52,688 nt of DNA from a virus. The stretch spans positions 1 through 52,688 of the IMG/VR virus record IMGVR_UViG_3300007504_000014, one strand, 5' to 3'. The translations under genes and the position numbers were made by a program. This document shows positions 1 to 25,556 of the stretch, in pieces (positions within the stretch are counted from its first letter, which is position 1; each line of letters begins with the position of its first letter). The notes beneath the pieces are model-generated. The model made no database searches. It was not told the DNA's origin and saw nothing but the letters and a program-made list of their open reading frames with translations.

Positions 1-1
1 A

Positions 2-927: not shown

Positions 928-938
928 CCCTATACGAA
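928..938 (-). promoter_or_regulatory. TCGTATA-class promoter motif for the lipoprotein-like gene
   Basis: On the minus strand the sequence reads TTCGTATAGGG, ending 23 bases before ATG 905. The core TCGTATA recurs upstream of plus-strand accessory genes at 8065, 9198, 25280 and 25550. An A-rich AAAGTTT element lies about 12 bases upstream, comparable to the AACT-type elements at 9177, 25260 and 25532. Confidence 0.5.
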
Positions 939-946
939 CCCGCCCA

Positions 947-970
947 GGAAACTTTCCGAAGAAAGATTCC
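947..970 (-). terminator. Stem-loop with C(UUCG)G tetraloop after the structural operon
   Basis: On the minus strand the RNA would form GGAA-U-CUUUC, loop UUCG, then GAAAG-U-UUCC. That is nine base pairs interrupted by one U-U mismatch and closed by the very stable C(UUCG)G tetraloop. It sits 33 bases after the stop of the 1004-aa structural gene and just upstream of the TCGTATA motif of the next gene. There is no long U-tract, so it could be a terminator, an mRNA 3'-end stabiliser, or both. Confidence 0.55.
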
Positions 971-1002
971 AAGAAACCTGTGGGCCCGCGTATATAGGGG
1001 GT

Positions 1003-4000
1003 TTACGAGCGGATAATTTCCAAACCCACGAGGCCGCGGAGGTTATCTACGGTGCCGCTGCTACCCCCCTGCTCCAGGTTGAGGGCCTTCCCTCCGGCGG
1101 TATCCTTGATGATAACCTTCACGAGGACCGGGACGGTCCCTTCAGCGGAGACGAAGAGAGTCGCCGCTGGACCTACGTGGACCCGCACCTGACACTCCAC
1201 AACGCCCGAGACAGCGTCCACATCATCAAACGTGGCAGGTCCCGTGACCTGACAGCCGGCTCCATCTTGGAAGGAATCCTGCTTGCTAGGGCCGGCACCG
1301 TCGCCCCGCCCAAGGTCCATCCAGGTCGTCCGTCCAGGGACCTTGACCAGGATAGCAATCTCCGGAGCCCCAGGCCCGGGAGGATCGTAAGCGAAATCGT
1401 TGAGGAGAAGGCCCTTCACCTTGAGAGTGAATAGGGCTGAACCTTCGGCTGCAACCGGGGTACCCGAATTCTTGAACCCTACATCGAAGGCTCGGATGTA
1501 GATCCGGTCTCCAGTCTCCGAGCTGTAATCCGGCTGGTCTGCGGCGATATCAGAATCCCCTGAAGGACCGGAGGGACGCATCCCGGAGCTGTAGTCGTGC
1601 TGGGGGAAAATCAACACGCCTGCGCTGGGGAAAGCAGACGCCACCCCGTCCGAGAGGGGCGGGTTCCGATCCGGGAGACCCGCGACCTGAAGCTCTCCCG
1701 CAGGGATGGAGCTGAGATGGTTCCCAAGCTGCACCCAGGAACTCGTATCGTAGCCCGAGACCGCCGTAGTCCCCGCTCGTACAGGGACGTCAATCGCAGA
1801 AGAGGCCCCGCCGAGCCCTGGCCCCACCAGGAGAGCCTGATCTCCCGCCGACACCCCCGGGAAGGTAGCATCATAGCGGTAGACCTCATCAAGGAACCGC
1901 TCCTCTACGTCCTTCTGAGCCGTCTGAGTACCCGCCGCCGCAGTGGTCGCCGTCGCGGGGTTGGCATACACGGACTCATCGGTGCTGTGGAAGAGCAGGG
2001 TGTCCCCGTTGGTCTCCAGAATCGTTGTTCCATACACGGCCGTCGCCGCTGCGCTGTTCCCCAGGGGACGACGGATAAACATCCTGACCCGAGCATCCCT
2101 GGAGAAGCTGGGAGCCGAATCGTCCCCCGTGGGCTGGAAGCCTGTACCGGCGATCGTAAAATCAGCCTTGTCCGTGAGACCAGGAGGGGCGACCAGGGAG
2201 AAAGGACCGTCAGTGTCCCCGAGATGAGTCATGTTCATCTCAATCCGGCCTGCCTTGGACGTGCCTGTACCAGCGGGCACGGAAAAGGTCGTCCCCTGAG
2301 CGAACGGGCCCACCCAGAGGAAACCGACGTCAGGGCCTTCCAAGCCAGAAGAAGCGGGGGTCCCGTTCCCCACTCGATAGCTGCTATCCCAGACCCCCGT
2401 CGCCTCCATCGGGAGCGACGTGATCTTCCAGGGGTTGAGCTGGGTGGACGGGATGAAGTAGCTGACACCGCTCAACACCTGGACGTTCACCGGAGAACCC
2501 GGGTCAAAGGTGTAGACCGTGTTGACAAACACGGGAGCCGCCGTGCCGTCATCATCCTCGATATGAGCACCGCGGACGATGCGGTAGCTCCCCGCCGGAT
2601 CGAAGGGCGAGGAACCCGTGGAGAGGTTGGCCGGAAGCTCCACGTTGGTCCAATTGACGATATTGGCAGACCATAGGGCACTGTCCGCAGGGGAGGTGCC
2701 GTCCACCACGAGGGCCTCAAAAGCGGCCTCCGTCTTGAAGTGGAGGAGCAGGAAGGAGCCGATATCCCGGGCGTCGCCGCCAGCTACCGTGGGGAACTCG
2801 AACCGCTGACGGAAACGAGCCAATTGGAAGGTCCAATAGGTCGTCTCAAAATCGGTGAAATCACCCGCCTGAGTGAGATCCGTCCCTGCATTGAGGGCGA
2901 TTGTCGGCTTGCTGAAATAGCGAGTCCGCTCTGCCGTCGGTGTGAATCGCAACCCCGTCGAGGTGCTGTAGTCGTTCAGGTAGGGCAACCTGTATCGGAA
3001 GAAGTTGTTGTCATCCCGGTTGTCCGCCGCTCCCGCGAGTGTGGGAGCCGACGCGGAGGTAGTTCCCCCGAGGATATCGAAGCCCAGACGGGTCATGCCG
3101 ACCGTCGTGTCCGCCGCCGGGGGGGAGACGCCACCCGTGGAAGAGACTCCCGTGTGCAACTCAGAGAGATCAAACTGACCTGTTGCTCGCCCAGGGAAGG
3201 TATAGGGATCAAAGCCGTCTGAAGTCGAGTCTCCCAGCGTGAACATCCCGCCCGGGTCACCGTCGCATCCAGAAACCTTCCCCGATCCAAGGGAGAGAGC
3301 GGCGATGCACCGAAGGTTCTGAGCCTGACCGGTGAAATCCGCAAGGGTTCCTCCGGCTGGGAAGTACAGGAGAGCCAACACGCCTCGATCAGCGGGGTAA
3401 ACCGCGCCGCTGACTACAGCGTAGCTGTTCCCTGATCCGGGCTTCGGCATCACCCGAGCGGTCTCGATGACCGCACTCCCCCGAGTGAACCCGCCCTGAT
3501 AAGTGTCCCCTGAACCCCCGCCCGTATAAGTCCCGTCCGCGACGTTGAAGGTGCTGTCCGTTGAGGGGTCATTCCCCGGCGTCGTGAAGCCGTCAGCGTA
3601 CTTCGGGAGGACGTGGAAATAGGGGTAGATATCCGTGTCAGCGTTGGGGGCTGTTATGTCCGGACATGTCACCACACCATTAGCGACGAGGCCGGCGTCG
3701 TTCAGCTTCAGGACTCCCCAATCCGGGACACCAGAGAACGTCAGGTAGCTGAGATCCTTCCCCAGACCAGGAGGTCGGGGCGGAACCAGAGCAGCCAGCT
3801 CGTCAAAACCCTCCTGCGTGCTGTCTCCGTCAAAGGAGCCCGACTCGTCTTCCAGAGCGATGGCTGACGCCGCGTGAGCGGCTGTCGGGTCATCAACATG
3901 CCCGCTGACGCTGGAAACCCCGCCCGCGCTTGGGGCAAGGGAAACAGCCTCAACGCTGTCCTGGGCAGCGAGACCCGACCCGACCTGGAGGTCACCGGGG

Positions 4001-4017
4001 TTGTTACTACGAGGCAT
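1003..4017 (-). CDS. Large virion structural protein, probably tail fibre or baseplate appendage
   Basis: 1004 aa. The sequence is rich in Gly, Ser, Thr, Asp and Pro, with long beta-type stretches and very few Cys, as in phage fibres and adhesins. Near the N-terminus a DDPTAAHAASAIAL segment resembles a short motif often seen near the start of phage tail proteins (from memory, not searched). No enzymatic motif was seen. It is the last gene of a two-gene unit: its ATG at 4017 overlaps the stop of the upstream 1096-aa gene (TGATG), so translation is likely coupled, and the RBS of its own is weak. A UUCG hairpin follows it. The structural role is inferred from composition, length and context; the exact virion position is unknown. 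Confidence 0.65.
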   Translation of the reverse strand: MPRSNNPGDLQVGSGLAAQDSVEAVSLAPSAGGVSSVSGHVDDPTAAHAASAIALEDESGSFDGDSTQEGFDELAALVPPRPPGLGKDLSYLTFSGVPDWGVLKLNDAGLVANGVVTCPDITAPNADTDIYPYFHVLPKYADGFTTPGNDPSTDSTFNVADGTYTGGGSGDTYQGGFTRGSAVIETARVMPKPGSGNSYAVVSGAVYPADRGVLALLYFPAGGTLADFTGQAQNLRCIAALSLGSGKVSGCDGDPGGMFTLGDSTSDGFDPYTFPGRATGQFDLSELHTGVSSTGGVSPPAADTTVGMTRLGFDILGGTTSASAPTLAGAADNRDDNNFFRYRLPYLNDYSTSTGLRFTPTAERTRYFSKPTIALNAGTDLTQAGDFTDFETTYWTFQLARFRQRFEFPTVAGGDARDIGSFLLLHFKTEAAFEALVVDGTSPADSALWSANIVNWTNVELPANLSTGSSPFDPAGSYRIVRGAHIEDDDGTAAPVFVNTVYTFDPGSPVNVQVLSGVSYFIPSTQLNPWKITSLPMEATGVWDSSYRVGNGTPASSGLEGPDVGFLWVGPFAQGTTFSVPAGTGTSKAGRIEMNMTHLGDTDGPFSLVAPPGLTDKADFTIAGTGFQPTGDDSAPSFSRDARVRMFIRRPLGNSAAATAVYGTTILETNGDTLLFHSTDESVYANPATATTAAAGTQTAQKDVEERFLDEVYRYDATFPGVSAGDQALLVGPGLGGASSAIDVPVRAGTTAVSGYDTSSWVQLGNHLSSIPAGELQVAGLPDRNPPLSDGVASAFPSAGVLIFPQHDYSSGMRPSGPSGDSDIAADQPDYSSETGDRIYIRAFDVGFKNSGTPVAAEGSALFTLKVKGLLLNDFAYDPPGPGAPEIAILVKVPGRTTWMDLGRGDGAGPSKQDSFQDGAGCQVTGPATFDDVDAVSGVVECQVRVHVGPAATLFVSAEGTVPVLVKVIIKDTAGGKALNLEQGGSSGTVDNLRGLVGLEIIRS

Positions 4018-7000
4018 CAGCTACTCACCGTCAACAAGAGGTTGCGAGTCCGATAAACCGCGGCACAGGTTCGGTTACCTGAGTCCACGAATCGGACAGT
4101 GTTTTCCTCGTCCAACTCTGCAAGGCGACTGACCACCACCAACAACACCTCATCCTTCCGGAAGAGCAGCGAGTCCGCCGTCGCTCGGGCCAGGAAAGGA
4201 ATGAAGACCTTGTGGCGGACGACTCCGCTGAGACCCTGGGCGAACGCGGTAGGCCGGTAAGAGGAGGTGTCCGAGACCTTGTACATTGCCCGGAACTCAA
4301 CATCCTTGTCCGCAGACGAGAACGTGAAGTTCCCGGTGCCGTCTACAGGAACCAGCCCACGGAGGTTGAGCAACCCTGTCTCTGCGTTGAAATCGTCAAT
4401 GGAGATGTTGCTCGTCGCCGCGAAGTACCACTCACCTGGGAAGTTGCTGGTCCCGTCGTCGTTGACGGGAATCTGATCCAGGGGAGCCAGATACGGGTAA
4501 GGCAGATCGACCGACCCCATCCCTACCTGACCCGTCCACAGCCCCTCGGACATAACCAGAGGTTCTACCGTCAGGGGATCCGGAAGCTCGCTCATCGGAG
4601 CGTTTCGAGTGCCCACAGTTTGAGGTGCGTTGCTACGGAAGTAAACCCCGACCTGATAGCCGCCCCCGCTGGCACCATAGTTCGGGACCGGGTCCTGAGC
4701 GAAATACGTGATCTGGCAGAGGGTCTGCCCCGCTCCGGAGAGAGGATCCTTGGACGGTGATCCACCCGCAGTGTCGAGCACGATCTTTCGGCTACTCGAC
4801 CCGTACTCGGTAGACGCAGCGGCTACATCATGTGCCTGAGAAGCCACCTGATCCGTAACCCCCGTGAGGTGAGACCCTGACCCGTAGATCCGGCGAAGAG
4901 GGTGGATGTTGGTCGTGTCCCGTGAGACCACCGTGTCCGTGATAGGGGTACCTGATCCGAAACCGGTCCCGGGGTCGTTCGCTATATACTCCAGCCCGAC
5001 CTCACGATAACCGCTACGGAAAGTCGGGCTCAAGAGATTCTCCATGTCGCCGGGGCGTTGGCTGGTGGCGTTCTCCAGAACCGGACCACGAGGCCAGGGG
5101 CCAGCGTCCGGGCTCAAGGTCACGTCCGGGGTATCCGTGACGCCCACACCCATCGGGTAGGTCAGCTCAACCTCAAGGAAGACCCGCCGCTGAGAACCAA
5201 CGTCCGAGCTGGTGCCCACCATCGCATGATCAGGGTTCCCAGAGTCGCCCCCGTTCACCTGAACCTCATTAGCGTCCAGAGTGAGCTGGAGATGACCCGT
5301 CCCGACCCCGGTGATGGACTTGAACTGGACCGCCTGATCTACAGCGGTGGTGTAGTGCCCGTCATCATGCCACGCCCCGAGAACATCCGTAATCATCGTC
5401 CCTGGAGGAGCGAAATCAAGAACACTCGCGTTGTGACCAGGACCGGGGCCCGAGAAGGTCGCGTTCGCGGGATCAAAAGCCCCCATCGTGGAAGCATTCA
5501 ACTCCGTCAAGTCCAGGTTGAGAACGTCGCCCTCACCCCAGCCATTCCAGGCTCCATTCGCCTGGGCCACATACTTCCCAGGGTATGTCCCTGAGTCATA
5601 GGAAGGCACGAACTCGAAAACCACCCGCTCGACCACCGCCTGATCAGCAAATCGTCGAGCGACGTGATCGAAATTCCGGATCGTGTCACCGCGAGTTGTC
5701 GAACCGCTCGTGGGGTTGTTTCCGCCGTGGGTCGTGTCTCGGCCAATCTGATTGCAGACCAGGAACTTCGTGGACACATCACCCGAGCCTGACCCGAGGG
5801 TCTGCTTGTCCGAAGCGTCCACAGCCCAGGTAGCCGTCTGCCCGTCAAGGAGACTCTGCATCTGGAATTGCAGCTCAGCGGCGAAGTCAAAGCCCATCGC
5901 CGCGACGTGCCGCCGGAGGTCAAGGAGGTCCCGGCTGTTAATCGCGTCCGAGAAGGCGCCGTCAGGACGATCGGACTCTCCCACCGCAATGACACCAACC
6001 TGAGGATTCGTGAACCCCGTGTGCGTGCTGGGGAGCCCTCCGTTCGCGTTCGTCTGCGGATCCCAACCTGATCCAGCCCCCCCGTTGTAGGAGTTGTTCC
6101 GCCGGAACACGAAACATACCGGGATGGCGTAGACGAAACCATCTACCGTGCCCAGAGCACTCGCCGCAGTGGAGGAACCATCACCCGCGACCCACAACCC
6201 GCTGTCCTCTCGATCATAGGCGACAGCGGAGCTGTTGGAGCTGGTAGAAGACAGGTCCGCGGCGACAAAGGGATAGCCAGCGACCGGGCTGGCTTCCGCC
6301 CCTTGAGCGAGAATCGCGGTGTTGGAGAAACCCTCGGGCTGTGTCTTGTGGTTGACCGCGATGGTCTGACCCGTCGTGCGAAGCCGATACTGGACCTGCA
6401 CCCGCTTGGTCGTCTCCGCGTCCACCACCGTGTCCTCGATATCATCATCAAGCCACACGCCGCTGGGAGAGTCTACATTGCCGTGCCGGTAGATCTTGTC
6501 CTGAGCAGGCTTGTTCGCCGTATCAGAACCCCCAGCCAGAGTCGCCCCGGATAGGACGAAAGCCGTCGCATCGCTAGTCGCCAGAGTGATCGAGTTGCCG
6601 GCGGCGCCTGGGGTCGCGGCCTTGACGGTGACCGTGTCCGTTCCGTTGGACGCCGCGGTCACCGTCGTGATGTAGGTCCCGATAGCCGAAGCGAGGTTGG
6701 ACGCCGTCAGAACATCCGACGCCCCAATCAAAAACTCGTTCGCCCCGGGAGCAGCAGCCCTCGCCGTCAGCACAGTCCCGTCAATGGTCGTTGTGTCCCC
6801 GTCGTCCATATTGGAGGTGACCGTCTGAATAGTCCCGGACGCCCGAGGGGACCGAGAAACCAGGGCTCGCCACACCTCCAAGAAGACAAAATCTGTCCGC
6901 TTCACGTCCGGGGCTGAGCCCCCGAAGACCGGAGCCGAGTCCAGGGTGATCAGGTTGTCTCCGCTCGTGGTGGTCCCCGTAAACTCAACCACCACAGGCA

Positions 7001-7368: not shown

Positions 7369-8025
7369 CTACGATTCGCCTTCATTGGTGACCCAGAAGT
7401 CTCGGGTCAGCATAGAAGCTCGCCCCTCAGACATGCTTATGGCTTCCTTTACCCGCAGGCCGATCCCTGACTTGAGCGTCTGCGAACCCTGCTTGAGACG
7501 ATGAAGGTTCAAATACACAATCTCTTGCGCGGTCACGTCCACGAACCCAACAAGAAGCTGGGAAGGGTCGTCCGCGAGGAGGAGGCTATGACCCTCAAGG
7601 GCTCTCGCCCTCATCGTCTTCAAGTAACTATCCAACGAATCAGGCCGGATAACCGCTCGCCAGTCCGAATTTGGGTTCCGCCCTGTGTCTATGTCGTCTG
7701 AAGGCAGGGGATCCCCGGACCAGAAGGCTTCCGTCAGAAGGAACGCCCGTCCAGCCGGGTACCGGATTGCTTCCCGGATTCTTTGAGCTTGGGAGCCCGC
7801 CGGCTCATCGTCACCGCCTCCCCATCCCTTGATGTATCGAAGGCCCACCTTGAAGGACTCGCCTGTATCCTTATCCACGAAGCCAATATGTCGAGTCCGA
7901 GGGTTATCCTCGCTCTCCAAGGAGGCCCCCGCCTCTACCCGAAGCTTGATCTCCGCAAGAAACTCGTCGAAGGAGTAGAACTCAACGATCTTACCCAGAT
8001 CAAAGACACCGTGCCCTTTTTTCAT
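7369..8025 (-). CDS. Unknown protein made of two tandem copies of a ~90-residue domain
   Basis: 218 aa from ATG 8025, chosen because a strong RBS (GGGAAGAGAG) directly precedes it; a frame extension upstream to 8106 would run across the promoter region. The protein is an internal duplication. Copy 1 (about 13-102) and copy 2 (about 124-211) share an N-terminal Asp-containing helix (FDEFL / LDSYL), an A/G-rich loop before a (V/I)GFVD strand (residues 47-51 and 159-163), an (R/K)EAI helix (84-87, 193-196) and a closing GRA-x-x-LT-x-x-FW segment (92-102, 201-211). No signal, membrane helix or known catalytic motif was found. It stands between the structural genes and the plus-strand cassette and shares an upstream region with that cassette. 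Function unknown. Confidence 0.7.
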   Translation of the reverse strand: MKKGHGVFDLGKIVEFYSFDEFLAEIKLRVEAGASLESEDNPRTRHIGFVDKDTGESFKVGLRYIKGWGGGDDEPAGSQAQRIREAIRYPAGRAFLLTEAFWSGDPLPSDDIDTGRNPNSDWRAVIRPDSLDSYLKTMRARALEGHSLLLADDPSQLLVGFVDVTAQEIVYLNLHRLKQGSQTLKSGIGLRVKEAISMSEGRASMLTRDFWVTNEGES

Positions 8026-8064
8026 CTCTCTTCCCTCTATGCCTGGGCACATTACCCGAGATAC

Positions 8065-8075
8065 TCGTATAAGAG
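8065..8075. promoter_or_regulatory. Palindromic TCGTATA motif between divergent genes
   Basis: CTCGTATAAGAG at 8064-8075 contains TCGTATA on the plus strand; the minus strand reads CTCTTATACGAG, a near-palindrome. It lies 39 bases before ATG 8025 (minus) and about 130 bases before GTG 8203 (plus). It may therefore serve both directions, with the plus direction belonging to the TCGTATA accessory class. Confidence 0.45.
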
Positions 8076-8099
8076 CGTGACCCTCAAACCGAGCAACCT

Positions 8100-8213
8100 T
8101 TGACACCGCTCCAAGAACTCTGCTGCCTCGTAGGATTCCCGGCCAGCATCGACCGAGACCTGCTCATCACGAGAGCCGTGAGCCGACACTGCGGAGGCAA
8201 CCGTGTTCCCTAG
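8100..8213 (+). CDS. Possible 37-codon micro-ORF, leader-like
   Basis: A TTG at 8100 opens a frame of 37 codons ending at TAG 8211-8213, overlapping the next gene's GTG start by 11 bases. It lies just downstream of the TCGTATA motif and fills most of the otherwise empty leader. The peptide begins with TPLQELCCLVGFPASIDRDL after the start and is amphipathic with three Cys. There is no good RBS before the TTG, so this is only a candidate. It would be the first gene of the plus-strand cassette, or simply an untranslated leader. Confidence 0.25.
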   Translation: MTPLQELCCLVGFPASIDRDLLITRAVSRHCGGNRVP

Positions 8214-8649
8214 CCACGACCTGTCCGGTCTCTATGGCTTCCTCTCCCCTTCCCAGGGTCAGCAGTTGGCAGCCCTGGAGAAGGACTACCGGAGGCTCCT
8301 CGCAGCCGCGGAAAAGGACCGTCAGATTCTCCTCGGCGTGCTCGACACCATCGGAGTGCGGCTGGACGAGCTGGTCCCGGACCCCGAGGTAGCCAAGGCC
8401 CGGGTTCTCCACTATATGAACCTCTGGAAGGAGGATAGGGCAGACTCCTCCCGATGGCAGGAGATCGACCAGGAAGACGAATCGACGTGGCCCCCGAACA
8501 ACGAGTGGACTCTCAACTGGAACGAGAGTGAGTGGTACGTCGAGGTCCCCGGGAATTTCCGAGGGATGGTGGACGAGTCCCCTGAACACTTCCACGGGAT
8601 CAAATACCTCATCCTCTCCTTCCACGGGAAGGTGCCCGGTGGATCCTGA
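8203..8649 (+). CDS. Unknown accessory protein, first clear gene of the plus-strand cassette
   Basis: 148 aa from GTG 8203, supported by GGAGG about seven bases upstream. Residues 15-55 look like one long amphipathic helix (QGQQLAALEKDYRRLLAAAE), likely coiled coil. The second half is acidic and Trp-rich, ending in a beta-type segment. No known catalytic motif is visible. It is followed at once by the DUF262 gene, whose GTG start overlaps its last codons, so the two are probably co-translated and may act together. It is the head of a cassette that is oriented against the virion operons, which suggests an accessory rather than a structural role. Confidence 0.6.
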   Translation: MFPSHDLSGLYGFLSPSQGQQLAALEKDYRRLLAAAEKDRQILLGVLDTIGVRLDELVPDPEVAKARVLHYMNLWKEDRADSSRWQEIDQEDESTWPPNNEWTLNWNESEWYVEVPGNFRGMVDESPEHFHGIKYLILSFHGKVPGGS

Positions 8650-9181
8650 ATCCTGGCCCGCCGCCCTCCCCAGCGGCAGCACCTACGCCAATATCCAACA
8701 TCCGGTACTCGCCCGAAGTCAATCGCACAAAGAGCCCGTGAGAGCGATCCTAGGCCCCTATCGGCGGGGTGAGCTGGTCGTCCCCGACTACCAGAGGGGG
8801 CGAGTCTGGACGCCTCGACAGCAGGCGGAATTCACGGGCTTCCTGCTGGAAGGCGGACCCGTCCCCGCGATCTTCATCCGAGACGTGGACACCGACGATG
8901 GGTTCCGAGACGAGCTGGTAGACGGGCAGCAACGGATCCTCGCCCTCATCGCGTGGGAAGATGAGAAGATCCCCGCGATCCTGCCCTCGCAGAACCGCTG
9001 CATCTGGAAGCGAGATATGGAGTGGCCCGGCTGGAGGATGAACATCTGCCTACCGGTTGGCCGTTTCCGAGGAACCCGAGCAGAAGCCATGAGCCTCTAC
9101 CTCGCCATCAACACCAAGGGGACGCCGCATACACAAGCGGAACTCGACCGGGTTCGGGGAATGTTGGAAAAGGAGAGGTAA
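8639..9181 (+). CDS. Standalone DUF262 (ParB/GmrS-like) domain protein
   Basis: 180 aa from GTG 8639, chosen because GGGAAGG lies just upstream and the earlier in-frame ATG would overlap the preceding gene by about 40 codons. The DUF262 signatures are clear: VPDYQRGRVW at 48-57, a helix and PVPAIFI strand at 74-80, and DGQQR at 95-99, the nucleotide-handling motif of the ParB/sulfiredoxin-like fold. An INTKGTPHTQAEL segment near residues 158-170 fits the usual INxxGTxLxxxEL helix. DUF262 proteins such as GmrSD normally carry a C-terminal DUF1524 HNH nuclease; this one stops after the N-terminal domain and has no HNH motif. It lies in the plus-strand cassette, overlapping the preceding gene by 11 bases. 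Fold assignment is confident; the role (anti-restriction decoy, NTPase or DNA-associated regulator) is unknown. Confidence 0.72.
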   Translation: MDPESWPAALPSGSTYANIQHPVLARSQSHKEPVRAILGPYRRGELVVPDYQRGRVWTPRQQAEFTGFLLEGGPVPAIFIRDVDTDDGFRDELVDGQQRILALIAWEDEKIPAILPSQNRCIWKRDMEWPGWRMNICLPVGRFRGTRAEAMSLYLAINTKGTPHTQAELDRVRGMLEKER

Positions 9182-9197: not shown

Positions 9198-9204
9198 TCG
9201 TATA
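9198..9204 (+). promoter_or_regulatory. TCGTATA-class promoter motif before the 72-aa gene
   Basis: GGTAACT at 9177-9183 and TCGTATACCCC from 9198 have nearly the same layout as GGTAACT 25260-25266 and TCGTATATACCC from 25280 (offsets 21 and 20 bases). The RBS GGAG at 9217-9220 and ATG 9227 follow at normal spacing, giving a leader of roughly 15 bases. Confidence 0.55.
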
Positions 9205-9226: not shown

Positions 9227-9445
9227 ATGTCCCCCCGACTCATCAACCTCACCAAGAGAATTCTCCGGGCGCGTTCCGTCATCGCGGCGGACGTGAATCG
9301 GGCGAGTCCTGAGAACGACCTCCTGAGAGGGGTCGCTGGGAGCCTGTCTCACCTCACCCGGGATATCGCGACCCTGACCGTTCTCATGGAGAACGAGGGT
9401 GCCGCCTGGGAGGAAATCCTCGCTCATCTGGAGAACAGCTCGTGA
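9227..9445 (+). CDS. Small helical accessory protein
   Basis: 72 aa from ATG 9227, with GGAG six bases upstream; a TTG two codons earlier would sit on top of the RBS. The product is predicted to be almost entirely helical: a basic first third (LTKRILRARS) followed by an amphipathic helix and an acidic end. There are no Cys and no membrane segment. It has its own TCGTATA motif and shares a GTGA stop-start overlap with the next gene, so the two form a small operon. The family is not recognised. Confidence 0.6.
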   Translation: MSPRLINLTKRILRARSVIAADVNRASPENDLLRGVAGSLSHLTRDIATLTVLMENEGAAWEEILAHLENSS

Positions 9446-16640: not shown

Positions 16641-19588
16641 CAGTCAATCCGGAAGAGTAGCTCGAAATAGGTACCTGACCCGTTGAAGGCGCCATTGTCC
16701 GACGCGAAGCTAGCCGTCCAGCGGTCTCCATCGGAGAAGCTCAGGTCAGCCGCGTTTGCGGTCAACGTTACCGGGGTCACCGTCGCTGGGCTCAACGTGT
16801 TCATATCGAAGGGGGTGGCATTGAGAACCGTGTTCCCCGTCGCTTCGTTGGTCACCGACAAGTCGTAGGCTCCCGTTGAGTTGACAGTCTGCATGTAGAC
16901 CGTCACCCGCACCAGCGTGCAATCCCAGGAGACCCACCCGCGATGGTTCACCGTGGAAGCGGGAGCCGGAGCTACGTTGAACTGGAAGGGGATCTGATAA
17001 GAAGAGACCGCCTCCGGGGTGGCATCGCTAGCCGCTCGGAAGTACAGGGCTCCCTGCTGGAGGCCCCCAGACCCGTCGCTGACGAAAATAGCTCCCTTCC
17101 CGGCAGCCGTCGTCGGGGCCGCCGCTTCGTCGAAGATCAATCCCGTGGGATCAATCAAGCCCGGGACCGTCAGCTTGCCCGTGACCGCATCATAGACGAG
17201 GTCATTGACCCCGTTCCCAATCGTGACCTGCTGGGTGCCAGAGCAGGACATGTCCACGAAGGTCGGGTAGGTGCCCGCTGTAAAGGTAGCCCCCCCGGCG
17301 ACCGTAAAGTCACCCAGAGCGGCGTTGACACCGGCATCGGCGGAGAGGAAGAAGACCTCCGCCGTAGAGCCCAGGGCGACCGTCGTTACAGTAATGACGC
17401 CAGCGGCTTCAGCAGCCGTGAGCCCCTTGAGAGCGGAGAGCTTGGTCACCACCTGAGCCAGCGTATCCGCTGAGTCCAAGCTCGCGGTGACAGCCCCCAT
17501 GCTCGTGGCGAAGGTCACATCCCCGGTGACCCCGATGGGATCTGCCGAAGCGGCATTCGCTTCCAAAGTAGCCGCCGTCGCCGCCGTGGGATCCACCAGA
17601 CGAACCGATGAAGCGGTCGATCCGGTCAACTCCTGACCGGGGACAAGGAACAAGGTTCCTGCGTCGCCGCCATTCGCCGGGTCGTAAGCTGAGCCCGCGA
17701 TCAGATACAGGTCCGCGGCGTTGGGTGGGGTCGCGTCCGGAAGGGAATCCCCCCCTTGAAGGACCAGATTCCCGATATCCGAGCCGGAGACGCCGCTCTC
17801 CGTCTGAATCAGCAAGTTGTAATTCCGAGCCAGGACTTCCTGGCTTCGTGCCTGGATTCGGGCGTTCCCTTCCGCGTGGGCTACATCTGCGGGGATGACT
17901 GCCCAGCCCAGGGAGATCTGAGGACCCGCTCCGTAGGGGTTCGGGTCAAGAGAAATCTCCGGCTTGGTCAAAGCCCCGAGCGAAACCGCTCCCACGACCT
18001 CCAAGCCGCCGTCGGTGTTGCCGGCAGGCGGGGGATCTGAAGGGCTAGCGGCGTCTACGATCTGAACCGCCCCCTGATCCGCGATGATCGTCCGCCCACC
18101 ACCGGAAGCCGCGACGCCATTGTCATAGGCGTCATCCAACGAGGTGACCAGGACGGAGAGACCATGAAGTTCATCCAGGGCGGCCTGGACCTCCGCCGCG
18201 GTCATCCCCGTGGTGCTGTTGTCGTAGAAGAGGGTGCTAGAGAGTACCGTCGCCGCGATGGTGGGCGAGCCTGTAGTAGAGACCCCACCGTGATAGGTAG
18301 AGCCCGCGTGGAGGGCTCCAGTCCCCGAGACGCCCGTGTCGTCAATGGTGATGGACCCGTCCACCCAACACCAGCGGAGACGGGCTCTCACGTCCCCGGA
18401 GATAGCTCCCCCGCTCGGGTGAATCGCGAGCGGAGTCCCCGTCCCGTCCATCTCAATCCGCGTATACTCCAAGAGGAGCAACTCCGCTGACGACTGGATG
18501 CCCGTAGCTCCCGTTCCGCTGGTCTGAACCAGACACCCCACCATCGTACAGGTGGCCGAAGCGTCCAGGGCGAGGTTGATATCAGCTCCGCTCGGGCCCT
18601 TGAACTTGCAGCGGTGAAACTCCGCCGTGGTGCTGCTGCCCGTCTGGGTATACGCCAACCGATCTGCGGCCCCACCCGACGCGAATTCGATCCAGCAGTC
18701 GTGGGCCAGAAGAGATCCCCCGCTCAAATCCAGAGCGGGACCCTGGCTAGCTGAAATCCCATCCTGAACAACATGGCAGCGGTAGAGGACCAGCTCCCCC
18801 GCCCCCGACTTGTCCAGCGTCGCGGATGCCGAGGTGTTGACATTCTCCAGGGTCAGCCCCGAGACAGAACAACGATCCCCGCTGTTCGTCAGTGGAGCTG
18901 TGTGCAACCCCCGAAGAGCGGCGACGTTGTTGTCCTCGTGTCCCTTCTGATTCCCAGGCCACCCAACGAGGTGAACGTGGGCCTTCAGGGTGAGATCTTC
19001 CGCGTAGACACCCGGCCGGATGGCGATGACGTAAGGCGAAGCCAGGGTGGCTCCTGCCGTGTCCGCGGCATCAATCGCCGCCTGAACCGTGCTGTGATCC
19101 GCGTACCCGGTCGCGGATCCATCCACGTACAGGATCTTCCCCGAGGCCGACACCGACTTGCAGAAAGCCAGGAGCGTCTGAAAGTTGGCGTTCTGCTCGT
19201 TGGTCCAACCCTCGGTGTCCACGTCTACCGGGATCGTTCCCGTGCCATCCCGCCGCTCACCAGCAGCGACCAGCTTGAGACTTCCAAACACCGTCAGAAC
19301 ACGCAAGCGGACATGCTGCGTGCTCTCGGAGCCGAGCCCGGCGTCTACCGTCAGGCGGACCAGATAGGGGCCTTCCTTGTCCGCGACGAAGCCGCCCGGA
19401 GACACCGCAGTGACGTCCCCGGAGAACGTCGCTGTGCTGCCCTCAGGCACGAAAGCGAGGGTCCAGGCGTAGGTGGTCGCGGAATCCACCGAGGAGACCG
19501 TGACGGTATCTCCAACGCCTACATCGTCGCGGCTCTGCCCATCAAGCTGAGACAGCCCGTTGACCAAACTACGGATGTTGGCGGCCAT
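16640..19588 (-). CDS. Fibre/spike-like protein with PKD-type domain and right-handed beta-helix
   Basis: 982 aa from ATG 19588, with GAGGAG six bases upstream; an in-frame TTG four codons earlier overlaps that RBS and is rejected. Residues about 20-110 read like a PKD/Ig domain (TYAWTLAFVPEGSTATFSGD). From about 165 a STVQAAIDAADTAGATLASP segment and VIAIRPGVYAEDLTLKAHVH open a typical right-handed beta-helix, with regular beta coils up to about 450. A MTAAEVQAALDEL stretch near 465 matches the xxVQAAIDEL motif common in phage fibres. The C-terminal third is beta-rich. It is the first gene of the fibre unit, behind a CCTATAGCC motif. The protein is likely a host-recognition fibre or depolymerase-type spike; no catalytic residues can be assigned. 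Confidence 0.68.
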   Translation of the reverse strand: MAANIRSLVNGLSQLDGQSRDDVGVGDTVTVSSVDSATTYAWTLAFVPEGSTATFSGDVTAVSPGGFVADKEGPYLVRLTVDAGLGSESTQHVRLRVLTVFGSLKLVAAGERRDGTGTIPVDVDTEGWTNEQNANFQTLLAFCKSVSASGKILYVDGSATGYADHSTVQAAIDAADTAGATLASPYVIAIRPGVYAEDLTLKAHVHLVGWPGNQKGHEDNNVAALRGLHTAPLTNSGDRCSVSGLTLENVNTSASATLDKSGAGELVLYRCHVVQDGISASQGPALDLSGGSLLAHDCWIEFASGGAADRLAYTQTGSSTTAEFHRCKFKGPSGADINLALDASATCTMVGCLVQTSGTGATGIQSSAELLLLEYTRIEMDGTGTPLAIHPSGGAISGDVRARLRWCWVDGSITIDDTGVSGTGALHAGSTYHGGVSTTGSPTIAATVLSSTLFYDNSTTGMTAAEVQAALDELHGLSVLVTSLDDAYDNGVAASGGGRTIIADQGAVQIVDAASPSDPPPAGNTDGGLEVVGAVSLGALTKPEISLDPNPYGAGPQISLGWAVIPADVAHAEGNARIQARSQEVLARNYNLLIQTESGVSGSDIGNLVLQGGDSLPDATPPNAADLYLIAGSAYDPANGGDAGTLFLVPGQELTGSTASSVRLVDPTAATAATLEANAASADPIGVTGDVTFATSMGAVTASLDSADTLAQVVTKLSALKGLTAAEAAGVITVTTVALGSTAEVFFLSADAGVNAALGDFTVAGGATFTAGTYPTFVDMSCSGTQQVTIGNGVNDLVYDAVTGKLTVPGLIDPTGLIFDEAAAPTTAAGKGAIFVSDGSGGLQQGALYFRAASDATPEAVSSYQIPFQFNVAPAPASTVNHRGWVSWDCTLVRVTVYMQTVNSTGAYDLSVTNEATGNTVLNATPFDMNTLSPATVTPVTLTANAADLSFSDGDRWTASFASDNGAFNGSGTYFELLFRID

Positions 19589-19621
19589 GCAGCTCCTCAA
19601 CCAGTTTCTACTCGCTGGGGG

Positions 19622-19627: not shown

Positions 19628-19707
19628 GCGGACCATTGACCAGCAGGAGTAGGGTCACATATGAACGCCCAATTCCACGAGCCACTCTGAGAATTTCAGA
19701 GCCCGAG

Positions 19708-19714
19708 TCGTATT
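19708..19714 (+). promoter_or_regulatory. TCGTATT promoter-like motif before the 80-aa gene
   Basis: GAGTCGTATTCTCC is a one-base variant of the TCGTATA class. It ends 21 bases before ATG 19736, with GAGAGG at 19723-19728 as the RBS. A GAATTTC at 19691-19697 sits where the other members carry their AACT-type element. Confidence 0.4.
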
Positions 19715-19735
19715 CTCCTGTAGAGAGGCATCGAC

Positions 19736-19978
19736 ATGACCTGCCAGGGAACGCTGAAAGAAACTCTCCGGGTTCAGACCCGGCTACTGGAAGAGCTACA
19801 CCGAGCAGAGAGGGAAACGGACAAGTGGTTCCCCCACCAGAACAAGGGACAGTTCTGTGCCCTCGTCAGAAACTCGCTGGAGGCGGCTGAGGCGATCCTC
19901 GGTCCTCATGACCCGGTCATGGCGGGGGCCTGGACCATGTTCGACCAGTACGCCGGGATCTACAAGAGGGGCGGCTAG
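19736..19978 (+). CDS. Small helical accessory protein between two virion operons
   Basis: 80 aa from ATG 19736 with GAGAGG eight bases upstream. The product is likely all-helical: an N-terminal charged helix (LKETLRVQTRLLEELHRAER), a middle segment with one Cys, and a C-terminal aromatic part. No membrane segment or known motif was found. It is the only plus-strand gene between the fibre and baseplate units. It has its own promoter-like motif, and its stop overlaps the convergent baseplate gene by four bases. This is the pattern of a moron-type insertion. Function unknown. Confidence 0.6.
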   Translation: MTCQGTLKETLRVQTRLLEELHRAERETDKWFPHQNKGQFCALVRNSLEAAEAILGPHDPVMAGAWTMFDQYAGIYKRGG

Positions 19979-21270
19979 ATATAGAACTGAGCCGACACGT
20001 CTTCCGCCGAGACGACCTTCGGTACCCGCATCCCGAGCCGGTCTACGGTCACCTCATACGCTTGCCCTGTCCCCACCGCGGGCATTCTCTTCCGCAACCG
20101 GAGAATGCTGGGGGCCGCTCGAACCTTGGTAGCGGGTCCAGATGCCGTCCCTACCGGACCACCAGACGCCCCCAGGAGCGTCTTGAGGAGATAAGTCCCG
20201 ATGTTGGCCCCAGCCGTGAAAGTGATCGTCTCTCCCTCCACAGCCTGTCCAAAATCCTGGGAGGCGTCTTCGATCACGTCCTCCGTGACGGTCGCTGTCC
20301 CGGTCAAGCCGGTAGGCGAGGTCGTGTAGCTCCTCGCTGTGCTGTCGTTACCCGCTGGGAAGACGAGTACATCGCGGACCTCATAGCGGCCGATATTATC
20401 CCCTGCCGAGAGCACCAGGAGAGCGTCGGCGGAGATGCTGGTGAAGTCCCGGGAGGGATCCGAGAATAGAGTCCGATCCGTGTGCGTCTCCCCCGCCGTC
20501 CCCGTAATGGACTTCGCCCCGTAGCAGTAACCCCGGAGATCGTCGTAGTAATAGTTCTCGACGGTCCATGAAACCGTGTCCGTGAACACATCTCCGAAGG
20601 CATCCCGGAACAAATGCCTGTACTCATAGAGAGTGTGGGCAGGCTTAAGAGCCTTCAGAACCAGCCGGACGTTCTCCTGAAGTATGATCGGGTCCTCTTC
20701 CGGCCACTCGGTTCCACCCTCCCGCTCGACGTTCACCTCAAAAGTAAATTGGTCGTCGAACCCCCAAGCGGTCCCCTCATCATGAGCATGAGCCACCTTG
20801 TCAATGACGGTTACGTCAGCGGTGGTGAGAAGATCTACTCCTTCTTCCATTGTGGCCCGGGTGGCTCCCTTCAAGAGCAGAACCACCATGTTCTTCAGAA
20901 AGGCCCGATAGGTTACGTCCCCATCGATCTGGGGAATCGACCCATGACGGAGAGACTCCGGGAAGATGAGCTGACCGAGAATCTGCCAGAGGAATTCAGC
21001 CCGCGTGTAGTCGAAGTCCGTATCTAAGAAGACCTGCTGAGCCCCGACCTGAATCCTCGCCAGCTCCTCCGCGAGAGCCTGGAACTGGAGGGTGTACCAG
21101 GGGCCGTTGACCTGGGCGATGTAGTTCGACGGGAGCACCTTGAGGAAGGCCGCCATGACCTTCTGCGTCTGGGCTTCGACTCGGTTCTCATAGTCCTGAC
21201 CAGAGAGGTCCGCCTGAGCGGGGTTCTGCTCAATGAGGTCAGGGAGCCCGTGCTGGGTAGGATCCGCCAT
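19975..21270 (-). CDS. Baseplate protein, tail-protein-I/wedge-like by position
   Basis: 431 aa. The N-terminal 230 residues are helical and acidic (NYIAQVNGPWYTLQFQALAE, then LARIQVGAQQVFLDTDFDYT), followed by a segment, YRAFLKNMVVLLLKGATRAT, that recalls baseplate proteins placed after J in phage tail gene clusters. The C-terminal half is beta-rich with Thr/Gly-rich repeats. It is the third gene after the J-like wedge and is coupled to the 157-aa gene by a TGATG overlap at 21270. By position it corresponds to P2 gpI or a T4 wedge component linking the baseplate to the fibres. Sequence similarity to gpI is not strong, so this is a contextual call. Confidence 0.55.
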   Translation of the reverse strand: MADPTQHGLPDLIEQNPAQADLSGQDYENRVEAQTQKVMAAFLKVLPSNYIAQVNGPWYTLQFQALAEELARIQVGAQQVFLDTDFDYTRAEFLWQILGQLIFPESLRHGSIPQIDGDVTYRAFLKNMVVLLLKGATRATMEEGVDLLTTADVTVIDKVAHAHDEGTAWGFDDQFTFEVNVEREGGTEWPEEDPIILQENVRLVLKALKPAHTLYEYRHLFRDAFGDVFTDTVSWTVENYYYDDLRGYCYGAKSITGTAGETHTDRTLFSDPSRDFTSISADALLVLSAGDNIGRYEVRDVLVFPAGNDSTARSYTTSPTGLTGTATVTEDVIEDASQDFGQAVEGETITFTAGANIGTYLLKTLLGASGGPVGTASGPATKVRAAPSILRLRKRMPAVGTGQAYEVTVDRLGMRVPKVVSAEDVSAQFYI

Positions 21271-21743
21271 CAGACGTTGAACCGCTTCCGAGCGTCCGCA
21301 GGAGAGGAGCCGTTGGGGAGATAAACCGCCCCGTCACCGATCCAACGGTTTCCGACTTGATACTCCAGCACCCACTTTTCCGTGTTGAGCCGACCCATAG
21401 CTCTGACGCCGCTGTCCGGACCAAGGCCCCGCACCCGATAGGGAGTCCCCTCATACTCGAAATGATCCACCCCATGACGAGCCAGCCGGATCCGTCGGGA
21501 TCCGTCGTAGAGTCTCCACGCCATCCCGTCACCGGAATAGTCGTAGCTGGCTTGCTCTTCGACCCATCCCCGGATCCGCTCCAGGGACTCGTCGAAGATC
21601 AGCTCAAGAACGGCACCGTCCGGGCGAGCAGAACCCACGGGGGTCATGGTGACCTTGCGGAGACCCCGGCCGAACTCCTCCTCGGCTTCCATTTGAACCA
21701 GCTCCAGGTTGTCCTTTCGCGATTCCACAATCACGCCGATCAT
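21270..21743 (-). CDS. Small baseplate-cluster protein
   Basis: 157 aa from ATG 21743, with GAGGA upstream inside the J-like gene and an ATGA overlap with its stop. It starts with a beta strand (MIGVIVESRKDNLELVQMEA), then short strands and turns rich in Gly, Arg and aromatic residues, suggesting a small compact beta domain. No known motif was recognised. Its place between the J-like wedge and the 431-aa protein, with overlaps on both sides, strongly suggests a baseplate structural or assembly role. Confidence 0.55.
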   Translation of the reverse strand: MIGVIVESRKDNLELVQMEAEEEFGRGLRKVTMTPVGSARPDGAVLELIFDESLERIRGWVEEQASYDYSGDGMAWRLYDGSRRIRLARHGVDHFEYEGTPYRVRGLGPDSGVRAMGRLNTEKWVLEYQVGNRWIGDGAVYLPNGSSPADARKRFNV

Positions 21744-24700
21744 GCCGAATCCTCGTCGTAGGTGAAGGTGAGGGTGCCCACGCTCAGATAGGCCGCCTTG
21801 CTCGGGTCGATGTTCTTCGCACCCGTGTCCGTCCCCACAATATAGGTCACCGTGTAATCGTGCTCTGAAGGGGCATCAGCCGCAGCCAGGGAAATGACTA
21901 CCCGATTCGCGGTCAACTCCTTCAGCCGATCTTCTTTCTCCTGGTCCGTCTCATACCCAGCGGCGTCCAAGGTCGTGTCATCCGTCAAGCCCTCGATCAG
22001 ATGACCATCTGAGCCGATGATATAGGCTCGACCCGCGGCGAGGCCCAACGCCGTCTGAGGCGGCACAATCTGGAGATCCAACTCGTCGTCGTCCTGATAG
22101 ACCCCGCGATACTCCGTGGACGCACCCCCTCCGGTTGTCGTCGCGGCGTCCAGCTCCTCTTCAATCAACCACACGCTGATCTCAGGAGTGGACCAGGAGG
22201 CAAGGTAGGTGACGTCTCCTGACTGGTCGGTTCGCAGAGCCTCCCGAATCACCTGTGACCCAGCTTGCCTCACCATGAGGGTGAGAGGCTCCACCACATA
22301 GGAGACTTGAGTGGCCCCGCCGATAGACCCGGTGACGTTGGATTGCCGAAGCGGCTCGCCAAGCCGAAGCCCGCTGAAGAGATTTTCGAGGTTGGTCCGA
22401 ATGGCTGAATCCGCGGCTGCTTGATCGGCTCTCTTCTTCAATACGACCGTAGCTGAAATATCTACCGGGATTTTCACCGCGTCTTTGACCAGGATATCGC
22501 TGCACACATGGCGGGAGCTATCCAGGTCTCCCTGAGCGACTGAGACCACCTGATTGACTTCGTACTCAACCGTGAAGTTCTCGTCGTGCTTATAGCTGAT
22601 CAGGACGGAAGCCCCTGAGGCGATGTTCCCTCCCTCGACTCTCTTGACGGACACCGCAGTCGTCTGATTCCCTTCGACGATGGTGTAGTCACTCACTCCA
22701 GAGCTGTCGTTGGGGCCCCGGTGAGTCGTGAGCCCGTCTGAAGACTTCACCACCAGAGTCCGCGAATCACACCCGAGGTTGTTCAGGTACTCCAGGTACT
22801 CCCCAATCAGAGTGTGAGCCTCATCCGTCACCTGGATGCTATCCCCGCTGGGTGTCAGCACCCCAGCGGAGTTCGTCGTCCCCGTGATCAAGAGATAGTC
22901 TCCCGCCTTGGTAGACCTCCCGATCCCCAAAGGGGCCTCCGGGTGGTAGAGCGCATAGGCGGCGGAAGCCAGCTCGCCGCTGATCACCCCTGTCACGGAC
23001 TTGATCGAACGAGCCGGCTGACGAGGCAACGTAAACTTGCTCCCTGTCCTATAGCGATAATCCCCCAACACCACGTCCGTCAGGGTCACAGCAGGCTGGG
23101 CGACGCTGGTGTCCAGAACGATGGTGTCGTAGCTGGAGATGGTCACGTCGTCCAAGGTGAACACCTGACCCGTGCTGGCGTTTCTCAGTTCATACCCCGC
23201 GTCGGAGTCGTCCAACATCTCAACGATCGGGTTCTCCAGGGAGAGATTAGCGTCCACCGCCCGGAAAGTGAGATCAGCGGGATCCCCGACGACTTCAAAT
23301 TGAACGTCCTGCTTGATTTCAAAGGTGAAGGCGAAGGTGTCTGTGACCTTCGCCACGTTCTCCCCCTGGAGCCAAACATCCACCTTTCCGCCGACATGCT
23401 TGGAGCCGTCGTAGTCTCGTTGCATCAGCGTTTCGCCTGCGGTCACCACCTCCGCTTGAAGGACGCCGGACACATCTGCCGCGATCTGTAGGAGACCCCG
23501 CTCCGTCCCTGAGTCCACGCTGGCGAGAGCGTTCTGACACCGCTCCGCGAGTTCCTTGTTGGACTCCGAATTTTTACCGCCGAAGGTCGCTGCCGCGTTG
23601 CTGACCGAGAGCCCGAGAGACCGAGCTGCGTTGCTCTGGATGGTCCGAATCTGACCTGCCCCAACCTCACCGGCAGATCCCACAGAAGAAGCCTTCACCG
23701 GCAGCGTAACCGACCAACGACCCGTGGAAGGGTTGTAGTGGCTGGCAAGACTGGACAGGCTGATACTCCCCGCCCGGGTGGTCTTGAAAGAAACCGAGCC
23801 TGAAGAAACTGTCGTCCCGATCGCCACCGTCAAAGTCCGAGTCGGCTGGGAGGTCGTGTAAAAAGTCACCTCCCCCCGAGCAAACTGACCCGCCCGACGG
23901 GTCGCTCCATAACGAGCCGCCAAGGCTTCAAACCCGCGATCAATGAGACTCTGAACGTCAGAGTTGCTCGTCAGGAAGAATGCCTTCTTCAACGCCTGCT
24001 TGTACGTCGAAGCGGATACGTCCACGCTGCTGCCCGTGCCTGAGGGGTCGTCGATCAGCAACAGCGAAGAGAAGCTCGCCATTCGGTGCAAGAAATCCTG
24101 AATGAAACGAAGCCGTTCCGCTTCCGCCATCGCAGGATCGATCACGGTATCCCTGAGGACACTCCCCGGACCCACTTTGATTTGAGGATTGCTCCGATAG
24201 ATGGCGGCGACCATCGTCCTGGTAAGCTGTTGACGAGTCCTCGCGGGGAAACTCCCAAGCGTGTTGGTCACCGTCACGGGGCGAGCCGCTACCTCCGATG
24301 AGTACCCGGATTCAATCTCTCTCCGGGTGGTCGAGTCGTAGTAAATCGCCGTGACCACGTAATAGAGAGGGTCCTCGACCCGAGTCGCGGCGAAGTCGCC
24401 ATTGGAGATCGTGGCCGGGGTAGAAGTCGGCCCCCCTGATCGAACGTGGTCGAAGCTGTATGAGGTGATCTGGCGAACGGTGTCGATCTGAGCCGTCACC
24501 CGCACATCTGTCGCCGTCTCCGGGATCTCCAGCTTGTCGTCAAAATCGCTCTGGAGGAGGAGATCCTTGCTGTCTACCTGCGTGCCAACAACCCGGACAT
24601 AGAGAGGATCCGAAGCGTGGTCTCCTGCGGCGTCCAGCTTGATCGAGTTGTCCGCCGTGATTGACCCGACGGAGGTTACCTCTTCCTCCGTCGTACCCGA

Positions 24701-25204
24701 ATCCACCGGGCTCAAGTTGATGAGCTGGTACCCCGTGGTACCCCCGCCGGACTCCGTCGAAGCGTAGAAGTTGTACCCGATAACGTTGGAATCGGAGAGG
24801 CCCTCGACCTTGATCCGAACCTTGTTGTCAAAGCTCTCGACCGAGATGTTCGTAGGGGCATTCGCGACAACCCCCACGTCCGCTTCCTGAACCAGGGTCG
24901 CCTCAATCACCACAGGCTCACTGACCTGTCCTGTGGACGCAATGGACCTCACCTGGAGGTTGTTCACTCCAGCGATGAGCGGGAGACCATCCGGGTACGC
25001 CGCCGGGTTGGGCAGAGTCCAAGCCGTACCCGTGAAGTACACAAGGTCCGGGTCCGAGACGAACGCTCCACCCCGAACCGAGACCTCCATGTCTACCGTG
25101 CTGGAGTCCATCGTCCCTGAGAAGAACCGAGTCCCCAAGGTAGTCGAGAACTTCCATGAAGCCCGAGCCACGCTATCCGAGCCCGTTACCACCGGGGCAG
25201 CCAT
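21740..25204 (-). CDS. Baseplate wedge protein, J/gp47 (T4 gp6-like) family, extended
   Basis: 1154 aa from ATG 25204, with GGAGTGAGG upstream. The N-terminal ~300 residues are not part of the usual J protein: they include an Ig/FN3-like segment around 110-160 (VIGYNFYAS, then GYQLIN). From about 310, RTMVAAIYRSNPQIKVGPGS and VLRDTVIDPAMAEAERLRFI match the start of the baseplate J domain, followed by the LIDRGFEALAARYGATRRAG region, a beta block, and SNKELAERCQNALASVDSGT with the following region typical of the J core. Wedges of this family join the hub to the fibre-bearing periphery and are present in contractile tails. Coupled to the 157-aa gene. This is one of the most secure functional calls in the window. 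Confidence 0.8.
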   Translation of the reverse strand: MAAPVVTGSDSVARASWKFSTTLGTRFFSGTMDSSTVDMEVSVRGGAFVSDPDLVYFTGTAWTLPNPAAYPDGLPLIAGVNNLQVRSIASTGQVSEPVVIEATLVQEADVGVVANAPTNISVESFDNKVRIKVEGLSDSNVIGYNFYASTESGGGTTGYQLINLSPVDSGTTEEEVTSVGSITADNSIKLDAAGDHASDPLYVRVVGTQVDSKDLLLQSDFDDKLEIPETATDVRVTAQIDTVRQITSYSFDHVRSGGPTSTPATISNGDFAATRVEDPLYYVVTAIYYDSTTRREIESGYSSEVAARPVTVTNTLGSFPARTRQQLTRTMVAAIYRSNPQIKVGPGSVLRDTVIDPAMAEAERLRFIQDFLHRMASFSSLLLIDDPSGTGSSVDVSASTYKQALKKAFFLTSNSDVQSLIDRGFEALAARYGATRRAGQFARGEVTFYTTSQPTRTLTVAIGTTVSSGSVSFKTTRAGSISLSSLASHYNPSTGRWSVTLPVKASSVGSAGEVGAGQIRTIQSNAARSLGLSVSNAAATFGGKNSESNKELAERCQNALASVDSGTERGLLQIAADVSGVLQAEVVTAGETLMQRDYDGSKHVGGKVDVWLQGENVAKVTDTFAFTFEIKQDVQFEVVGDPADLTFRAVDANLSLENPIVEMLDDSDAGYELRNASTGQVFTLDDVTISSYDTIVLDTSVAQPAVTLTDVVLGDYRYRTGSKFTLPRQPARSIKSVTGVISGELASAAYALYHPEAPLGIGRSTKAGDYLLITGTTNSAGVLTPSGDSIQVTDEAHTLIGEYLEYLNNLGCDSRTLVVKSSDGLTTHRGPNDSSGVSDYTIVEGNQTTAVSVKRVEGGNIASGASVLISYKHDENFTVEYEVNQVVSVAQGDLDSSRHVCSDILVKDAVKIPVDISATVVLKKRADQAAADSAIRTNLENLFSGLRLGEPLRQSNVTGSIGGATQVSYVVEPLTLMVRQAGSQVIREALRTDQSGDVTYLASWSTPEISVWLIEEELDAATTTGGGASTEYRGVYQDDDELDLQIVPPQTALGLAAGRAYIIGSDGHLIEGLTDDTTLDAAGYETDQEKEDRLKELTANRVVISLAAADAPSEHDYTVTYIVGTDTGAKNIDPSKAAYLSVGTLTFTYDEDSA

Positions 25205-25279
25205 CAGACCTCACTCCAAGTCATCTCAACCAACCCAACCTGATAAAGCCAATACCGCAGGTAACTTTTTCTCCCACAC

Positions 25280-25286
25280 TCGTATA
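25280..25286 (+). promoter_or_regulatory. TCGTATA-class promoter motif before the Cys-rich mini gene
   Basis: GGTAACT at 25260-25266 precedes CTCGTATATACCC from 25279. The arrangement almost copies that at 9177-9204. A strong RBS (AGAGGAG, 25295-25301) and ATG 25308 follow. The other strand of this 103-base gap must also drive or lead into the J-like gene, but no clear CTATAG motif is present there. Confidence 0.55.
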
Positions 25287-25307
25287 TACCCGTAAGAGGA
25301 GTTCAGA

Positions 25308-25532
25308 ATGAACCTGCCCGGCTACGATTCATGGAAGATCGACGGAAACCGAACTTACTGCTACGACTGCGGGGAATACTGGTATGAAGCCTACGGGTGT
25401 GCCTGCGACGAGGGTGATGTGCCCGACGACCAGGACTACCCGGACGAGAACCCGGCCCCGGCTTGTGGAGACCCCGAGTGCGAGGAGCCCGAGTGCCAGC
25501 CCGTCGGTGGGGATTTCTCTCTCCCCTTCTGA
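25308..25532 (+). CDS. Cys-rich, acidic mini protein, probable zinc-binding
   Basis: 74 aa from ATG 25308 with a strong AGAGGAG RBS. Residues 18-33 hold CYDC and CAC (Cys 18, 21, 31, 33), spaced like a zinc ribbon. A second set, Cys 53, 58 and 63, lies in an acidic, Pro-rich tail (CGDPECEEPEC). The N-terminus is aromatic-rich. The charge is strongly negative, which is uncommon for DNA-binding proteins but common for inhibitors that mimic DNA or bind host enzymes. It has its own promoter motif and is followed 31 bases later by another accessory gene. Function unknown; zinc binding is inferred from spacing only. Confidence 0.6.
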   Translation: MNLPGYDSWKIDGNRTYCYDCGEYWYEAYGCACDEGDVPDDQDYPDENPAPACGDPECEEPECQPVGGDFSLPF

Positions 25533-25549
25533 AAAACTCCGGGGGTCGG

Positions 25550-25556
25550 TCGTATA
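25550..25556 (+). promoter_or_regulatory. TCGTATA-class promoter motif directly before the 213-aa gene
   Basis: GGGGGTCGGTCGTATAGGGG precedes ATG 25564 by only seven bases, with AAAAACT at 25532-25538 as the upstream element. It resembles GGGGGTTGGTTCGTATACCC at 9189. If transcription starts the usual six to eight bases after the -10, the mRNA begins at or next to the start codon. Confidence 0.55.

Follow-up and report, generated by a model that had tools for sequence, protein, structure and literature searches.

TCGTATA sites in the window

The window analyzed here is a virus record of 52.7 kb (IMGVR_UViG_3300007504_000014), one portion of a jumbo-phage genome, and the element in question is the heptamer TCGTATA. 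Exactly 6 copies were found in the window versus 1.15 expected from dinucleotide shuffling, and none of 100 shuffles reached 6. Considered with other contigs of the same phage, TCGTATA appears to be the -10 element of a bipartite phage promoter with approximately 45-55 occurrences in this genome. The targets in the window are mostly small genes on the plus strand, across from the long run of structural genes on the minus strand. The individual features are listed below.

931..937, minus strand: TCGTATA, putative -10 in the promoter of gene 213-905 (minus strand, 230 aa, without a Pfam match); 28.9 bits
947..957, minus strand: -35 element GGAAAGTTTCC, fitting the GGnAAnTTTCC consensus from 45 sites
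8065..8071, plus strand: TCGTATA, putative -10 with a weak -35; genes 8203-8649 and 8528-9181 (both plus strand) lie downstream; 19.7 bits
9177..9185, plus strand: -35 element GGTAACTCT, sharing bases with the TAA stop of the gene before
9198..9204, plus strand: TCGTATA, putative -10, 22 nt to the ATG of the 72-aa gene 9227-9445, with a Shine-Dalgarno-like GGAG; 16.0 bits
19689..19697, plus strand: -35-like element GAGAATTTC
19708..19714, plus strand: variant TCGTATT, putative -10, 21 nt to the ATG of the 80-aa gene 19736-19978; 15.5 bits (genome-wide matrix)
25260..25268, plus strand: -35 element GGTAACTTT, the best match to the consensus
25280..25286, plus strand: TCGTATA, putative -10, 21 nt to the ATG of the 74-aa gene 25308-25532; 26.9 bits
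25530..25540, plus strand: -35 element TGAAAAACTCC, sharing bases with the stop of the gene before
25550..25556, plus strand: TCGTATA, putative -10, with the ATG of gene 25564-26205 (213 aa) exactly 7 nt on and a predicted leaderless mRNA; 26.6 bits
22440..22446, minus strand: TCGTATT and a -35-like element, lying within baseplate gene 21740-25204 (minus strand); 20.6 bits
30883..30889, plus strand: TCGTATA without a -35 element, inside the small open reading frame 30846-31070 (minus strand); 11.3 bits

The site at 8065 was the weakest by eye, with a poor -35 and no start codon at the typical distance. One gene downstream of it (8528-9181) encodes a GmrSD_N/NsnA-like N-terminal domain and is possibly a phage-carried defence gene. 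The copy at 30883 is probably a chance occurrence, and the site at 22440..22446 is a possible internal promoter within the baseplate gene. A preliminary description of this DNA had reported the TCGTATA copies and the TCGTATT variant; all were recovered within 2-3 bases, with positions corrected at 931 and 30883. The element ending in AACT that it had noted upstream is real and forms part of GGnAAnTTTCC, which starts 20-21 nt before TCGTATA; the AACT shared at 9177 and 25260 ends 13-14 nt upstream of the heptamer.

Genome-wide distribution of the motif

A search with the window's baseplate protein returned two contigs of the same phage (G002, 84 kb, and G001, 62 kb; 99.9-100%) and three relatives at 42-45% (LR745208.1, 485 kb; G006, 152 kb; G009, 289 kb). 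Further contigs of the phage were recovered by scanning for the full motif. Where they overlap the window or G002, contigs G011, G012 and G013 match at 99.7-100%. Contig G010 (126 kb), which overlaps none of the other same-phage contigs, was assigned to the window's phage on the basis of base composition, a strong motif excess (18 copies versus 3 for the reversed control) and its conserved genes, which form a complementary set. The available sequence of this phage amounts to ~306 kb of an incomplete assembly, with ~10% of the genome missing, of which 295.6 kb of non-redundant sequence was analyzed using genes from a simple purpose-made caller.

In this sequence 45 of 51 TCGTATA copies were intergenic, versus 12.4% of bases (p~1e-34); the 45 include the window copy at 30883, whose small open reading frame was omitted by the caller, and recounting it as genic made no substantive change. 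TCGTATA was the most intergenic-skewed of 8031 heptamers, and the runners-up were mostly pieces of the motif or of a clustered regularly interspaced short palindromic repeat (CRISPR) sequence. Outside the window 39 of 45 copies were intergenic, again versus 12.4% of the DNA. The preliminary description had named a heptamer no more frequent between genes than inside them as counting against its proposal, and the opposite was observed. As G010 was found through the motif itself, the most independent test of placement is G002, where 8 of the 9 copies outside the window were intergenic.

Alignment of the sites gave the bipartite motif GGnAAnTTTCC-N9-TCGTATA with constrained spacing; relative to TCGTATA, GG lies at -20/-19, AA at -17/-16, TTT spans -14 to -12 and C is at -11. 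Scanning with a position matrix and a cut-off of 16 bits found 45 sites, 44 of them intergenic, and 0 in shuffled DNA. With the variants GCGTATA, TCGTATG and TCGTATT, the total comes to ~55 sites. The sites are intergenic and point toward the start of the downstream gene. An ATG lies exactly 7 nt after TCGTATA at 10 of 45 sites (p~4e-11), which suggests leaderless mRNAs and, if they are leaderless, would fix the start site; a start 5-9 bases downstream, as had been predicted, fits these sites. At most of the other sites the start codon follows after 17-25 nt, in many cases behind a Shine-Dalgarno-like sequence. The palindromic form TCGTATACGA makes divergent pairs at G011:7137/7140 and G010:88566/88569. 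A promoter would consist of GGnAAnTTTCC as the -35, ~9 nt, TCGTATA as the -10, and 7 nt to the start site.

A T7-like promoter, with TATAGGG at the start site, was excluded, since the leaderless ATGs put the start 8 nt past the motif and a -35 is present. The sequence CCTATAGC (G013 26852, G002 70007, G010 113459) stands ahead of some large conserved genes by 24-33 nt. The statistics were too weak to claim it as a second, possibly late, promoter class.

Genes behind the motif

The motif precedes 33 distinct genes, of which 5 had relatives in the other phages, versus 117 of 246 genes overall (p = 5e-5). With a stricter definition of core genes, the ratio of non-core to core targets was 28:2 in this phage (p = 3.5e-5), and the relatives' own motifs gave 28:8 in G009, 32:1 in LR745208 and 18:4 in G024, each significant singly among six uncorrected tests; G029 and G032 showed no non-core bias for their own motifs. 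The promoter mostly precedes lineage-specific genes, though not strictly accessory ones. The earlier statement that the class is reserved for accessory genes is right as to a strong bias, here and in three relatives, but too strict, because five conserved genes follow the motif too.

Promoter classes in related jumbo phages

The relatives were screened with the same k-mer test as this phage, and the following classes were obtained.

G009: TGCGGTTGC..TCCGTATA
G029: TAACGTAAA..TCGTATAG
G024: GGGTTCAACT..TCCGTATAG
LR745208: CGATTTC.CTAAAAAGT..CCGATAGG
G021: GGTTTCAA..CGCGTAG
G032 (L394-L407): 35 intergenic copies of GGGCGTAA, with the ATG mostly 8-9 nt on and no clear -35; another leaderless class

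Across the relatives the -10 is usually CGTATA-like, and the -35 elements are unrelated from phage to phage. No clear promoter class was found in G006 or in the partial contigs G030, G031, G037 and G038.

A candidate sigma factor and alternative readers

Searches of the relatives with sigma region 2 led to a divergent family whose members (A4, A5 and A8) occur in over 30 contigs. The A8 profile matched sigma-H (3mzy) through regions 2 and 4 (E = 1.7e-9), Sigma70_r2 matches at E<=1 were obtained in 22 of 28 A8 members, and the top Foldseek matches of the A8 model were extracytoplasmic function (ECF) sigma factors. Over 300 pairs, mean identity was 50% in region 2 versus 21% in region 4; between G009 and G029 it was 82% and 26%. 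A conserved region 2 and a divergent region 4 in the sigma mirror the similar -10 and different -35 elements of the promoters. The sigma gene of LR745208 lies behind TTGACA-N16-TATATT and that of G029 behind TTGACA-N17-TACAAT; a sigma-70 promoter matching at 11 of 12 positions precedes only 3 of 478 LR745208 genes, the sigma gene among them, and only 1 of 156 G029 genes, the sigma gene itself.

We consider it likely that a phage-encoded ECF-like sigma directs the host RNA polymerase to a post-early regulon of accessory genes. Host RNA polymerase loaded with a divergent member of this family would most likely read the promoter; we infer the sigma as reader, the timing, and the presence of a family member in this phage. 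The sigma-70 promoters suggest a cascade in which a host sigma-70 promoter would give an early phage sigma, which would in turn switch on the scattered accessory regulon. A phage-specific promoter class with a single regulator over a scattered regulon, as the preliminary description had it, fits these results. Its suggestion of early genes is unsupported: promoters that depend on a phage sigma could not act immediate-early without that sigma being packaged in the virion, and the host sigma-70 promoter found in two relatives stands before the sigma gene itself.

Several results weigh against a phage sigma. Some A8 members score above the Pfam Sigma70_r2 cut-off and most score below it, the Foldseek E-values are ~2e-3, and the predicted template modelling score (pTM) of the model is 0.38. 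A near-perfect sigma-70 promoter precedes the sigma gene in only 2 of 5 relatives. The G021 contig (98.7 kb) has a motif of its own and gave no sigma match. A six-frame search of the ~306 kb of this phage with a hidden Markov model of 28 relatives found no sigma homologue. This absence is not conclusive because that sequence lacks other shared genes too: of 80 genes common to LR745208 and G009, 8 were not found, among them those for DNA polymerase, PhoH and the sigma. Scans of viral contigs for the sigma and polymerase, and for promoter-variant or CRISPR-repeat patterns, yielded no additional contig belonging to this phage.

The missing homologue would also be expected if a host ECF sigma read the promoter, the phage having adopted a host stress promoter, and the architecture of the motif (GGTAAC, 15 nt, CGTATA) is ECF-like, resembling ECF promoters such as TGAAAC-N16-CGTA. 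This explanation is nevertheless unlikely. Across 257 Gb of genomes the full motif had 70 exact matches, a number at or below chance; they were spread over many unrelated taxa, one per locus, with no genus-level regulon. The unrelated -35 elements of the relatives, moreover, go along with a phage sigma family whose region 4 is variable.

A second candidate is a 203-aa protein with two tandem sigma region-4-like helix-turn-helix (HTH) domains (L089 1366-1977; G010:39904-40515), encoded downstream of a dnaX-like gene, which might be the reader on its own or might supply the -35-binding half of a split sigma. It is present in this phage and in ~80 jumbo-phage contigs and matches Sigma70_r4 (E = 6e-12). 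We regard this role as improbable, as no region 2 was detected in the protein and its HTH domains are 69-74% identical across the clade, too conserved for unrelated -35 elements; a shared role, for example as a co-activator, is more likely. Very improbable is an operator for a DNA-binding regulator in place of a sigma-recognized -10: position-specific motifs upstream of genes can be operators and some sites are palindromic, but the fixed 7-nt gap to leaderless ATGs and the bipartite spacing fit initiation, and TCGTATACGA sits at diverging promoters, as overlapping -10 elements would.

On the phage-sigma reading, region 2 and the -10 stay alike within the clade, region 4 and the -35 vary, and each phage would have a promoter code private to it. 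As an extension, a conserved half of the sigma would recognize the -10 and a hypervariable half the -35, and the private code would serve the accessory genes, perhaps insulating them from competing phages, defence or host regulation. We offer this extension tentatively, as falling a little short of probable.

Other features of the genome

The phage carries CRISPR arrays with the 36-bp repeat GTTGCCATCCCTCTAGGGGTAGGCAGGTATTGAGAC, adjoining Cas6, Cas5b-like and Cas7b-like genes, in a phage-borne system that is type I-B-like. Array and Cas regions lie at L077 (G011) 1-519 and 530-2600, G011 19099-19561, G002 66-363 and G013 34739-35650, and contig breaks tend to fall at the arrays. A 175-bp duplication of 99.4% identity has copies ~2.9 kb apart (G002 47453-47627 and 50386-50560; window 1-175). 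Replication-type genes are seemingly split or enlarged (G002 7949-8635, G010 48499-55787 and 69657-78949), a DNA ligase contains intein-like sequence, and inteins and homing endonucleases look common in this phage.

Significance and comparison with known systems

Sequence alone was enough to map, genome-wide, the accessory regulon proposed for this uncultivated giant phage. The results suggest that accessory genes of jumbo phages enter one regulon by gaining the cognate promoter; if each phage does have a private code, that code could be read directly off its DNA. The sigma-promoter series is a natural one in which regions 2 and 4 evolve at very different rates, and it could teach how sigma specificity evolves and supply orthogonal pairs. 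In the literature, with subscription journals mostly uncovered, no report was found of a clade-wide private promoter code with matched divergence of sigma regions 2 and 4.

Phage-specific promoters are also found in the phiKZ/AR9 jumbo phages, which have multisubunit RNA polymerases; no Rpb2-type subunit (Rpb2_6) was found in this phage or its relatives, and a phage multisubunit polymerase was rejected as the reader. Sigma factors, some cut to one HTH domain, are encoded by group 2 jumbo phages that lack an RNA polymerase of their own, and the parts of that account consulted report no promoter code for them (PMC7824862); here region 2/4 divergence is matched to the -10 and -35.

The candidate system resembles bacterial ECF (group IV) sigmas (sigma-E, sigma-H, SigW) in its layout of regions 2 and 4, its -35/-10 spacing and its CGTA-type -10, and differs from them in serving a multi-copy phage regulon and in that A8 falls mostly below Pfam cut-offs. 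The phiEco32 sigma phi32_gp36 reads tAATGTAtA, with starts 6-8 bp downstream (PMC8948821). That promoter is a single element without a -35, read by a sigma without region 4 homology, in contrast to the clear -35 here (PMC8948821). The sigma of phage 7-11, SaPh711_gp47, reads late promoters of the form GTAAtg-(16)-aCTA, with starts 6-9 bp away (PMC8948821), and the two sigmas are only 15% identical (PMC8948821; see also PMC4331800). As in 7-11, whose promoter diverged from that of phiEco32 along with its sigma, a phage sigma on host RNA polymerase, as proposed here, would read a bipartite promoter (PMC8948821). Phage 7-11 is phiEco32-like and has eight such promoters, for late genes; in the present case there are ~45-55, mostly before accessory genes of jumbo phages, and many of the sites are leaderless.

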